Assembly: GCA_016840085.1 (NCBI GenBank)
Contig: JAEOTA010000081.1
Coordinates: 62,001 to 126,000, forward strand
Direction of reading: 5' to 3'
DNA length: 64,000 bases
Source: Promethearchaeota archaeon
Lineage (GTDB): Archaea > Asgardarchaeota > Lokiarchaeia > Sigyniarchaeales > SOKP01
The notes beneath the pieces are model-generated. The model ran no database searches and was not told the origin of the DNA. It worked only from the letters and a program-made list of their open reading frames with translations. A program made the translations under genes and the position numbers. The stretch's first letter is position 1. Each line of letters starts with the position of its first letter. Below are positions 16,476 through 21,215 of the stretch, piece by piece.

Positions 16476-17627
16476 TTAGCGTGAATCCGTTAAATATTTC
16501 ATAAATTCTTTTTTATACTCTTTTGGAAGTTTATCTGGTCTTTTTAGGTCTGAATCAGGACTTACTTTAGTTTTAATCAAGATCATAATTGGACCTTCTC
16601 GATTTTTAATATCTTCTAATGATTCTAATAATTTCTCTTTAGATTCTATTAAAATTCCTAATTTGTAATTTGATGCCAAGGCTATATTAGTGAATTTAAC
16701 ATTGGGAGAATTTGTAGGTTGACTTCCTGTAGATTCATGAACTTCATTATCTAATATAATATGAACGAAGTTTGTAGGTGAATACTTTCCAATCGTTGTA
16801 AAAGCCCCCATTTGCATAATTGTTGCTCCATCTCCATCAAATACAATTACTCTTTTATCTGGCTTTTGAAGAGCTATACTTAATCCAATAGAACTAGCGC
16901 ATCCCATTGATCCAATATTATAGAAACTTTTATTATGTTCTTTTTTTCTTGATTCTCTATACTCAAATAATTTTCTTGAAATATATCCTGTGGTAGAAAC
17001 AATAATTTCATCATTAGTTAAATTATTCATAATTAACTCTATTACTTCTTTCGTTGTCAATGAATAATTATTTAATGATTTTTTTTTCATTTCATAAAAT
17101 TGAAAGAAATTTCGTCGAAAAATTAAAGCATATGGACCATTTTCTTTCTTAAGATACTCAATTACCTTCTTAATCTCGTTTTTAATTAAAACTAAATCTG
17201 GTTTAAGGATAGTATAAGGAATTTGCAATGTATCTAATAATGGGAGCATAATTTCACCCATTTTCTTATGTTGAGGTGCATCAATTTTATCAGGTTCACC
17301 TCTCCACCCAATCATTAAGAGAACAGGAATTGAGTATACTTCTGGATCACATAATGACGTAATAGGATTGATTGTCTTCCCAAATCCAGAATTTTGCATA
17401 TAAACAATTCCTATTTTATTTGTTGCTAAATGATAACCAGAAGCAATAGCAATAGCTTCACATTCATTGCAAGCAACAACATTTTTTAGACCTTTTCCAT
17501 CATTATCAGCTAAGTATTTCATCCAATCTTTAAATGTGGAATCAGGGATTCCAGTAAAGAAAGTAAAATCAAAATTTTTTAAAATTTCAAAAAAATCCTC
17601 GCACCTAATCATTTTTATCATCAACAA
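16476..17627 (-). CDS. ppd: Phosphonopyruvate decarboxylase (ThDP-dependent)
   Basis: FFTGIPDSTFKDW, NECEAIAIASGYHLATNKIGIVYMQNSGFGKTINPITSL, IGWRGEPDKIDAPQHKKMG, ThDP motif GDGATIMQMGAF...HIILDN; adjacent to PEP mutase operon. Confidence 0.93.
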   Translation of the reverse strand: MLMIKMIRCEDFFEILKNFDFTFFTGIPDSTFKDWMKYLADNDGKGLKNVVACNECEAIAIASGYHLATNKIGIVYMQNSGFGKTINPITSLCDPEVYSIPVLLMIGWRGEPDKIDAPQHKKMGEIMLPLLDTLQIPYTILKPDLVLIKNEIKKVIEYLKKENGPYALIFRRNFFQFYEMKKKSLNNYSLTTKEVIELIMNNLTNDEIIVSTTGYISRKLFEYRESRKKEHNKSFYNIGSMGCASSIGLSIALQKPDKRVIVFDGDGATIMQMGAFTTIGKYSPTNFVHIILDNEVHESTGSQPTNSPNVKFTNIALASNYKLGILIESKEKLLESLEDIKNREGPIMILIKTKVSPDSDLKRPDKLPKEYKKEFMKYLTDSR

Positions 17628-17635
17628 ATAAAGAT

Positions 17636-18352: not shown

Positions 18353-19509
18353 CTTATATCATTTAAGATTTTCCTTAATTTTGTTTCTGTAAGTAAACGA
18401 GGATTATTTTTTACTCTTTCAGGATTGAATCCATTTTTTATAATTAATTCAATATCCTCCTGAGTCTTAATATGCAAATTCTCTAATTTTATTTCTAATC
18501 CAATATTTATTATTAAATTTCTAATAATTTCTCGTGCTTCGATAAAATCTGAAGCACCAATTATTGAAATTAGTTCTTTCATAACCTTTTTAACATATTC
18601 AACTCCACGTGAATCTATTATATCATCTTCACTCACATCTGAATTAAAGACAATCATAGAAGGTAAAGTCAAAGCAACTGCATGTCCATGAGGTATATTA
18701 AAGTATGAAGTAATAGGATATGAAATAGCATGACAAGCAGTCGTTTTTGTGATGTTTATTGCTTTTCCAGCATAATTTGCCGCAATTACCATATTATACC
18801 TAGATTTTTTATCAGGGGTGTTAACAGCTTTTATTAAATTATTTAATATAAGCTCAATTGCCTTCTTCGCATAGTTTTTTGATTCATCAGTAGAATTTAT
18901 ATTCCAAAAAGATTCAATAGCTTGAGTGAGTGCATCTAAACCGGAAACAGCAGTGTTTTTTTTCGACAAGCTGTATGTAAACTGAGGATCGACAATCACA
19001 TATTCTGGTTGTAAGTATTCTGGTTCTGCTAAAGAATATTTATCTTTATCTATGTAAACAACAGCAAAATGAGTTGCTTCACTCCCAGAACCTGCTGTTG
19101 TTGGAATCCGAATTAAAGGTATGCCTTTTTTTTTTATTTCTTTTTTTTTTACGATAAGATCTATAGGAGAATTATCATTAGTTGATAAAATTGAAATAGA
19201 TTTTCCCATATCTAAGACTGATCCTCCTCCAACAGCGATAATTACATCAAAATCTTGGCTTTTAAATAAGTCTAATCCTTTTTTTATATCATTTAATTTT
19301 GGATTTGGAGAAAAATCATTGAATTGGATATAATCATAATTTTTGAGAATCTTAAGAAGCTTTTCTTTTATAATAGTCTTCTCAAAAGAATCTTTTCCTG
19401 TTATTAGGAATATATTTTTAAAGGTATTCTTTCTTAAAATCGTCTTTAATTTATTAATAGAGTTAAATCCTAAATATTCTATCATTTTTGTGTTATATTT
19501 ATTAATCAA
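18349..19509 (-). CDS. Iron-containing alcohol dehydrogenase, candidate phosphonoacetaldehyde reductase
   Basis: GGGSVLDMGKSISIL, TTAGSGSEATHFAV, ACHAISYPITSYFNIPHGHAVALTLP; overlaps the PEP mutase stop by TTGA; operon context. Confidence 0.85.
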   Translation of the reverse strand: MINKYNTKMIEYLGFNSINKLKTILRKNTFKNIFLITGKDSFEKTIIKEKLLKILKNYDYIQFNDFSPNPKLNDIKKGLDLFKSQDFDVIIAVGGGSVLDMGKSISILSTNDNSPIDLIVKKKEIKKKGIPLIRIPTTAGSGSEATHFAVVYIDKDKYSLAEPEYLQPEYVIVDPQFTYSLSKKNTAVSGLDALTQAIESFWNINSTDESKNYAKKAIELILNNLIKAVNTPDKKSRYNMVIAANYAGKAINITKTTACHAISYPITSYFNIPHGHAVALTLPSMIVFNSDVSEDDIIDSRGVEYVKKVMKELISIIGASDFIEAREIIRNLIINIGLEIKLENLHIKTQEDIELIIKNGFNPERVKNNPRLLTETKLRKILNDIR

Positions 19510-21215
19510 ATTAATCTTTCAGCAAATTCAATATCTTTCTTATTATGAATCTCAATCCAACCTTTATGTACTTCCAAAATGTCTACTTGAAAACCTCTAT
19601 CTATTACTTCTTGTATAAGATCAACAAATGATGCTTTTTCAAATGAATCTGCTTCATGGAAATTTCCTTTGTGATTCATTTTGCAATCATTATATATCCT
19701 TCTGATTATCTCGACCCCATATTCTGAGAAGTAAGCTATTCCGGCAAATTCATAATCCGCCATGTCTTTATTAATACTCCTTCCTATTCTGAAAATCTTG
19801 TTCTTTATTTGATATAAATCTCTGGTTTGTTCACTTGGCTTACTTTTTGTAAGAACAAGTTCAAGAATTTTATCAATTTTATGCTTGTGATAAGTGTAAG
19901 AATTATCCAATACCAATATAATATCTCCTTTTGAATTGAGCAGGTTTTTTATTATTTGTTCATTAAACAATATATCAGAGTAAATAAAAATAAACCCTCC
20001 TCCCATATCCCATTCAGCTTTAAAGAGAGAATGTAAGATGTAATACTCATCATATTCATCATTATCAATGTATTTTATACCATCAACTGTAAATTCCTCT
20101 TTTTTATAACCTCTAATAACAATTATATCGTTAATACCACAATTTTTTAATGTCTCTATTTGTCTTTGGAGAACAGGCTTACTTTTTAAAAGCGTCATCC
20201 CCTTCGGAATATTAAACTCAGGATCACTTCCAGCAGCAGGGATAATTACTTTTATAGGACTTTTAATATATTTTAAATCTTTTTCTTTTACATCCAAAAA
20301 ACCAACATCTTTAAAAACGGTTTTAACTGGGCTGCACATAGATTCTGCTTCAAATGCCCTTTTATTCCTTAAAATTATTGAAGCAGTTTCCTTCATAGCT
20401 TTATGAGCAGCTCGTAAAAGATGATTAGCATATATTACTATATTAAATCCATGCTCTATTAGTTCTTCCTCTGTAATAGTATTATAAGTGGTAGGGACAC
20501 ATACTAAAGGTTTTCTAAATCCTAATTCTTTTGTTAATTTTTCATATTCTATAGCAAAATTAAGGATTTCTTTAGGATCTCTCTGTTTAGAATGAATCAT
20601 TATTCCATCTGCACCTGCTAATAAATATTTCTTAGCTCTATAAATAGCATCTCTTAATCCTGAACCTGCTATCAAGCTTTCAATACGTGCTATAATCATA
20701 AAATCATCAGAAATTTGAACTTCCTTCCCTCTTTTAATTTTTGTAGCAAATATATCCGGATCTGCTTGATCTTGGATTGTACCCCCTTCAAGGCTATTTC
20801 TTTTAGGGAATTTCTTATCCTCAATAATAACCATTGAAACGCCCATGTCTTCTAATGCTCGAATAAAATATTCGAAATTTGCAGCTTCTCCACCAGTGTC
20901 TCCATCAATTATTATTGGTTTATTTGAGCTATTTAGAATTTGTCTAATTGTTTCATATCGAGATTCAGCACCTACAAGCTCAATATCTGGATATCCTTTA
21001 GCAGCACTATCTGTAAAACTACTAGCCCAAAATCCATCAAACTCACGAATTTCATCTTTGTAGTGTTCTTTTATATTATTAGCGATAATTGCACTTAATC
21101 CGTTATGAGCTTCTATAATTCTAATAAAACTTTTTTTTTCAAGTAAATCTTTTAGCATTCTTCTTCTTACATTTGGTAAGATTCTACTTGTTAGCTTGAA
21201 TTCCATAATCACCAC
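19506..21215 (-). CDS. pepM: Phosphoenolpyruvate mutase fused to C-terminal nucleotidyltransferase-like domain
   Basis: GFWASSFTDSAAKGYPD, DGDTGGEAANFEYFIRALE, diagnostic EDKKFPKRNS (EDKxxxxxNS), IARIESLIAGSGL; C-terminal domain IIPAAGSDPEF..PKGMTLLKSKPVLQRQIE. Confidence 0.95.
   Translation of the reverse strand: MVIMEFKLTSRILPNVRRRMLKDLLEKKSFIRIIEAHNGLSAIIANNIKEHYKDEIREFDGFWASSFTDSAAKGYPDIELVGAESRYETIRQILNSSNKPIIIDGDTGGEAANFEYFIRALEDMGVSMVIIEDKKFPKRNSLEGGTIQDQADPDIFATKIKRGKEVQISDDFMIIARIESLIAGSGLRDAIYRAKKYLLAGADGIMIHSKQRDPKEILNFAIEYEKLTKELGFRKPLVCVPTTYNTITEEELIEHGFNIVIYANHLLRAAHKAMKETASIILRNKRAFEAESMCSPVKTVFKDVGFLDVKEKDLKYIKSPIKVIIPAAGSDPEFNIPKGMTLLKSKPVLQRQIETLKNCGINDIIVIRGYKKEEFTVDGIKYIDNDEYDEYYILHSLFKAEWDMGGGFIFIYSDILFNEQIIKNLLNSKGDIILVLDNSYTYHKHKIDKILELVLTKSKPSEQTRDLYQIKNKIFRIGRSINKDMADYEFAGIAYFSEYGVEIIRRIYNDCKMNHKGNFHEADSFEKASFVDLIQEVIDRGFQVDILEVHKGWIEIHNKKDIEFAERLI

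Follow-up and report, generated by a model that had tools for sequence, protein, structure and literature searches.

What does a phosphonate operon make in an Asgard archaeon, and where does its product go? This question is raised by a 64,000-nucleotide stretch of DNA (hereafter the window; positions 62,001 to 126,000 of contig JAEOTA010000081.1, assembly GCA_016840085.1) from a Promethearchaeota archaeon of the class Lokiarchaeia, in which four open reading frames (ORFs) encode a phosphoenolpyruvate mutase fused to a nucleotidyltransferase (NTase) domain, an iron-dependent alcohol dehydrogenase (Fe-ADH), a standalone NTase and a phosphonopyruvate decarboxylase. We consider it likely that this operon makes 2-hydroxyethylphosphonate (HEP), activates it as cytidine monophosphate (CMP)-HEP and supplies it to a surface glycan of the Lokiarchaeon. 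In the proposed route, PepM would convert phosphoenolpyruvate to phosphonopyruvate, Ppd would decarboxylate this to phosphonoacetaldehyde, and the Fe-ADH would reduce the aldehyde to HEP. The standalone LicC/PntC-type NTase (17636–18352) would then join HEP and cytidine triphosphate to CMP-HEP, which the glycan genes may use as donor, most likely via a TagF/TarF-like transferase placing HEP onto a surface polymer. The core features, all on the minus strand, are:

19506–21215, minus: pepM, phosphoenolpyruvate mutase (mutase domain about 20310–21155; TIGR02320, 349 bits, cut-off 319.6) with a C-terminal NTP_transf_3 domain (about 19509–20255; PF12804, 27.6 bits)
20793–20822, minus: EDKKFPKRNS, the diagnostic PepM motif (PepM residues 132–141)
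18349–19485, minus: Fe-ADH, predicted phosphonoacetaldehyde reductase (378 aa if translated from the ATG that agrees with relatives)
17636–18352, minus: standalone NTase (NTaseA), predicted HEP cytidylyltransferase, LicC/PntC-like (LicC 1jyk E=2e-12; Tde-PntC 6pd1 E=1.3e-5)
18035–18037, minus: codon of NTaseA His106, proposed to discriminate HEP from 2-aminoethylphosphonate (AEP)
16476–17627, minus: ppd, phosphonopyruvate decarboxylase (TIGR03297, 421 bits, cut-off 312.5)

The first-pass annotation had read these four genes as one coupled operon; all four lie where it placed them, and their families were confirmed at scores well above chance level. The ATGA overlap between Fe-ADH and NTaseA is real (18349–18352) and also seen in relatives. 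The TTGA overlap it described between PepM and Fe-ADH is doubtful: the longest Fe-ADH ORF starts with TTG (18349–19509), but the Fe-ADH of nine relatives is 378 aa long, the length also obtained here from an ATG at 19485, 20 bp beyond the PepM stop. The overlap therefore probably reflects a miscalled start codon.

The first two steps are assigned by equivalog models, TIGR02320 and TIGR03297, whose cut-offs are exceeded by the only PepM of the genome and by Ppd, respectively. The motif on which the earlier annotation had relied is present, and its pattern EDKxxxxxNS occurs in all PepMs of the Asgard loci compared, while isocitrate-lyase-like homologues carry EDQxWPKRCG. In the PepM tree (this and the Fe-ADH and NTase trees were quick LG+G4 runs with SH-like approximate likelihood ratio test (SH-aLRT) support only and no bootstrap), the window protein groups with PepM-NTase fusions, far from the isocitrate-lyase-like outgroups, and thus does not belong to the isocitrate lyase group. 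Asgard PepMs come in two layouts. In 17 genomes, all of the window's family, PepM is followed by an NTP_transf_3-like domain (~569 aa), and eight Asgard genomes from five families have an N-terminal PF01467-like domain followed by PepM, as in Fom1 (one of them truncated). The window type branches within sequences from Thermoplasmata, Chloroflexota, Falkowbacteria, Planctomycetota and Nitrospinota (SH-aLRT 100), and most PepMs of the second layout group with Aenigmatarchaeota, Woesearchaeota and another archaeal record. As the two types group apart, Asgard archaea probably gained PepM at least twice. Neither layout is new in itself, since Rice et al. reported fusions to PF12804 for 33% and to PF01467 for 24% of PepM proteins (PMC6697681). 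Nitrospinaceae sequences (L060–L064, L067, L070, L071, L073) carry the same PepM-NTase fusion, with neither Ppd nor Fe-ADH encoded in its vicinity; the L063 copy is flanked by an M50 peptidase gene and by proS-rimP-nusA-infB-like housekeeping genes.

The third enzyme is the first of three lines of evidence for HEP as product. The Fe-ADH matches PF00465 (139 bits) and PF25137 (122 bits) and falls within a clade of 37 sequences (SH-aLRT 100), every one of which is pepM-linked; the clade includes annotated phosphonoacetaldehyde reductases of Fulvitalea and Segatella and a Stackebrandtia sequence. Generic Fe-ADHs, including paralogues from the window genome, lie outside it in 10 of 11 cases, the remaining paralogue being too divergent to place. 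The phylogeny suggested as a check by the first-pass annotation thus sets the enzyme with pepM-linked relatives and apart from generic ones, and we predict that it is a phosphonoacetaldehyde reductase. A glutamine in place of the metal-binding histidine (DALTQAIES) was considered as a signature of this activity and rejected as not diagnostic, because about 11 pepM-linked Fe-ADHs keep the histidine and two generic ones (L142, L152) have glutamine.

AEP would be the obvious alternative product, with its transaminase encoded elsewhere in the genome. AEP is frequent among bacterial phosphonates, and a related Lokiarchaeon of the window's family, G112 (locus L041, contig C10, 326000–345500), has an AEP aminotransferase in its cluster. 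There, the PepM-NTase fusion and Ppd are kept, an AEP transaminase (437 bits, cut-off 361) replaces the Fe-ADH and a Glu-type NTase replaces the His-type, so that the product gene and the standalone NTase have switched jointly with the fused domain unchanged. The G112 cluster also holds four TagF-like domains, two of them in one 815-aa ORF. In the window genome, however, no AEP transaminase reaches the cut-off (best score 44 versus 361 bits; assembly 98.8% complete), which extends genome-wide what had been noted for the window alone; the Fe-ADH stands in the transaminase's place, and NTaseA is of the His-type. An AEP product was rejected on these grounds, and we regard it as highly improbable.

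The standalone NTase points in the same direction. NTaseA, whose best PDB match is LicC, has an intact GxGxR...PK loop (GIGKR, PK) and the metal-binding Asp in HGD, with Lys replacing Thr/Ser before the Arg. In the structure of Tde-PntC, Glu104 and Glu196 are placed for contact with the AEP amine (PMC6697681). Aligned to this enzyme, NTaseA carries His106 at the Glu104 position and was therefore not classed as an AEP PntC. We read the equivalent residue from aligned pepM-linked NTases, anchored on the metal-binding Asp: it is Glu at 16 loci with an AEP transaminase and none with Fe-ADH, and His at 26 Fe-ADH loci and no transaminase locus (Fisher p = 6e-12; non-Asgard loci alone, 15 vs 7, p = 6e-6), counts that do not represent independent events because the His-type enzymes form a single clade. 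One additional transaminase-locus NTase has Asp. The His-type clade (29 sequences, SH-aLRT 100) occurs only in Fe-ADH or unassigned pepM loci and spans Asgard archaea, Thermoplasmata, Woesearchaeota, Methanobacteriota, Falkowbacteria, Bacteroidota and Bacillota. HEP as product, as first proposed, is thus backed by the Fe-ADH tree, the His/Glu position with the NTase tree and the missing transaminase, and CMP-HEP as its activated form by the His-type NTase and its tree.

For CMP-HEP, this holds for one of the two NTases of the operon. The standalone enzyme is the predicted activator, whereas the PepM-fused domain has a shortened loop (AAGSDPEF-IPK), and Asgard fusions lack the Arg at the Arg15 position; Lys25 is additionally lost in L065–L067, and some bacterial members likewise lack this Lys. 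Replacing Arg15 in Tde-PntC lowers activity to <10% (PMC6697681). Since this Arg is absent, the fused domain is probably not a CMP-HEP synthase and may have a structural or regulatory role.

HEP might also be only an intermediate, which an unrecognised oxygenase or other enzyme encoded elsewhere turns into methylphosphonate, hydroxymethylphosphonate or a diffusible compound, in the way that marine methylphosphonate producers pass via HEP and MpnS (PMC8931226). Among the 40 window ORFs scanned, no Pfam match suggested MpnS or another HEP dioxygenase; this was a general scan without a model specific to MpnS or HepD, which leaves the idea some room. MpnS and HepD require oxygen, however, and known Lokiarchaea are anaerobes. 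As the operon contains an intact PntC-type NTase instead, we give this alternative a small chance, and activation of HEP to CMP-HEP remains the preferred reading.

Does the operon belong to the archaeon at all? The window lies in contig C78 (271,561 bases) of a 4.68-Mb assembly that is 98.8% complete with 7.6% estimated contamination, and Nitrospinota and further bacteria also have PepM-NTase homologues, so that a bacterial fragment in the metagenome-assembled genome (MAG) had to be considered. Of 232 genomes in the phylum, 25 have a PepM over the cut-off and 22 a Ppd, the two sets being nearly identical, and PepM carriers usually hold the other three genes. The distribution is patchy, with nine genomes of the window's genus having PepM and ten lacking it. 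Nevertheless, the eight other carriers in the genus share the operon and flanking genes, and 16 more carriers lie elsewhere in the phylum, two of which (G091 and G095) are single-contig assemblies. A scan of named genomes for PepM returned Candidatus Lokiarchaeia/Lokiarchaeota records, so that MAGs named as Lokiarchaeia carry the operon, and a survey of Asgard synteny found the set of pepM, ppd, Fe-ADH and NTase in at least four families and in more than one gene order. In addition, Ras-family and Arf/Roc-type GTPases, which are typical of Asgard genomes, are encoded in the same window (5134–5658, plus; 9778–11577, minus). The Asgard host proposed at first is thus supported by the Lokiarchaeia carriers and by synteny conserved in the phylum. 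Contamination, which the first-pass annotation had named as a reason to abandon its reading, is very unlikely, indeed close to negligible, because of the number of carriers, their usual possession of the other genes and the two single-contig assemblies. The four-gene module also occurs in Thermoplasmata, Woesearchaeota and bacteria.

If CMP-HEP is made, which enzyme uses it? The surrounding glycan island comprises about ten glycosyltransferases, two flippase-like proteins, sugar epimerase/dehydratases, a pyruvyl transferase and a TagF/TarF-like protein. The relevant neighbours are:

47867–49084, plus: TagF/TarF-like transferase, lead candidate (PF04464, 293 bits, cut-off 22.1; TagF 3l7i E=1e-33)
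26473–27279, minus: cytidine diphosphate (CDP)-alcohol phosphotransferase, alternative candidate transferase of phosphonolipid or archaetidylinositol type (PF01066, 28 bits; AF2299 4o6m E=4e-7)
25331–26443, minus: GT4 glycosyltransferase (PF00534, 133 bits)
23684–25213, minus: alkaline-phosphatase/sulfatase-superfamily protein, accessory (PF00884, 44 bits, C-terminal part only)
22750–23514, minus: second NTase (NTaseB), with an intact loop; a relative of the NTase domain fused to PepM (PF12804, 48 bits; NTase tree)
21406–22719, minus: major facilitator superfamily (MFS) transporter of the GlpT/UhpC/PgtP organophosphate group, accessory (TIGR00881, 230 bits, under the 408 cut-off)
15375–16346, minus: NAD-dependent sugar epimerase/dehydratase adjoining ppd (PF01370, 215 bits)

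The TagF-like protein is our lead candidate, given that seven other Asgard genomes (G037, G097, G099, G112, G142, G144 and G153) have homologues no more than about three genes away from the module, a PF04464-family gene directly after the phosphonoacetaldehyde reductase gene in the HEP cluster of Segatella, and the lack of both a canonical glycerol-3-phosphate cytidylyltransferase (best score in the genome 40 vs 165 bits) and LicD. LicD itself was rejected as the transferase, as the genome has none. The missing cytidylyltransferase fits a donor other than CDP-glycerol but is no proof, as CDP-glycerol could be supplied by another NTase of the island. With 180 bits against the TarF model (cut-off 550), the protein was not filed as TarF.

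Second in line is the CDP-alcohol phosphotransferase, which could instead use CMP-HEP to place HEP on an archaeal lipid, giving a phosphonolipid. The window copy matches AF2299, and 15 of the 58 Fe-ADH loci have a gene of this kind no more than 9.5 kb from pepM, as does 1 of the 18 AEP transaminase loci; these counts come from a home-made profile built on a single weak match, which may collect too much. Its nearest NCBIfam model, however, is archaetidylinositol phosphate synthase, so that this gene, which neighbours the NTase at 27627, may just as well serve inositol lipids; in many relatives the gene is not seen near pepM, and most neighbours are glycan genes. Overall, we judge the lipid route unlikely, with a minor share of the probability, and favour transfer of HEP to a glycan by the TagF-like protein.

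Several points weigh against the proposed route. The Fe-ADH scores 193 bits, under the cut-off of 423.7, with the sole model for a phosphonate Fe-ADH, PsrA (TIGR03405), and was therefore not classed as PsrA; the annotated phosphonoacetaldehyde reductases are also under this cut-off (166 and 134 bits). The main clade does not take in a second group of Asgard Fe-ADHs, nor some dozen further pepM-linked ones, and the His/Glu rule reflects few evolutionary events. The enrichment of TagF-like genes at Fe-ADH over AEP transaminase loci is not significant (p = 0.27), so the transferase assignment rests on adjacency in Asgard genomes; the AEP cluster of G112 has TagF-like genes too, and the window's own copy lies about 27 kb from pepM. 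Furthermore, we infer every reaction, the acceptor and the transferase from gene content, families, clades, synteny and residue patterns.

How does the locus compare with known systems? With the Pnt clusters of Treponema denticola and Atopobium/Lancefieldella rimae (PMC6697681) it shares PepM, Ppd, a LicC-like cytidylyltransferase and glycan genes. Those clusters make AEP via an aminotransferase and a Glu-type PntC, whereas the window has Fe-ADH and a His-type NTase, a fused NTase loop without Arg15 and an Asgard host. HEP-type bacterial clusters (Segatella copri, Fulvitalea axinellae plasmids, a Stackebrandtia relative) share PepM, Ppd and an Fe-ADH annotated as phosphonoacetaldehyde reductase, and in Segatella a His-type NTase is fused to PepM beside the adjoining gene of the CDP-glycerol glycerophosphotransferase family; they differ from the window in domain order, fusion and bacterial hosts. 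The start of fosfomycin synthesis runs likewise from phosphoenolpyruvate via phosphonoacetaldehyde and HEP to CMP-HEP (Fom1 step: PMC6697681). The window PepM, unlike the eight other Asgard PepMs of Fom1 layout, lacks the N-terminal PF01467 domain, and no downstream fosfomycin genes were seen at its locus. The methylphosphonate clusters of Nitrosopumilus, a confirmed phosphonate producer, are likewise archaeal and use a pepM-ppd-dehydrogenase route via HEP (PMC8931226); the likeness is one of pathway, not of direct sequence comparison, and no MpnS candidate was noticed in the general scan of the window.

The first-pass annotation had called the pathway new. For the host this stands, as we found no earlier report of phosphonate synthesis in Asgard archaea or Lokiarchaea in the open-access literature. 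For the module and the fusion it does not, since bacteria commonly have the module and both PepM fusions, and Nitrosopumilus is a confirmed producer; what is new is the host, and the system is of a known kind. Bacteria and ammonia-oxidising archaea were already known to have pathways of this type. No known archaea are closer to eukaryotes than the Asgard group, whose surface chemistry is still little understood. More tentatively, and with more doubt than confidence, we propose that Lokiarchaea build a HEP-bearing surface polymer from CMP-HEP with a TagF/TarF-like transferase, and that His-type NTases are dedicated HEP cytidylyltransferases across domains. If true, Lokiarchaea would have their own version of teichoic-acid chemistry, one that contains a carbon–phosphorus bond. 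The His-type NTase would be swapped for a Glu-type PntC when a lineage turns from HEP to AEP. Carried by roughly one in ten of the Asgard genomes examined, a full activated-phosphonate route would add sediment archaea as a phosphonate source. The His/Glu position offers a simple sequence rule for predicting HEP versus AEP clusters and bears on makers of CMP-HEP beyond fosfomycin producers.

Some neighbouring genes recur with the module. The GlpT/UhpC/PgtP-like MFS gene adjoins pepM in six genus relatives, in L048 (another Asgard family), in Thermoplasmata L068 and in the nanoarchaeon L081, and its product is possibly a phosphonate or organophosphate exchanger. NTaseB likewise lies beside pepM in two Asgard families, Thermoplasmata and Aenigmatarchaeota, with L048, L068, L072 and L120 among the loci, the phosphatase/sulfatase-superfamily gene lies near the module in seven genus relatives, and the epimerase/dehydratase gene adjoins ppd in four. 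Two 761-aa proteins without a Pfam match are encoded on the minus strand (13075–15360 and 38665–40950); the former is conserved near ppd in relatives and resembles a multi-pass membrane protein. Elsewhere in the island, the polysaccharide pyruvyl transferase (44018–45370, minus) adjoins an FrhB-like iron-sulfur protein (42742–43986, minus), and the ORF at 57430–59172 (plus) strongly matches PF24793 (GINT1_N, the N-terminal domain of glucosamine inositolphosphorylceramide transferase 1) with 135 bits.

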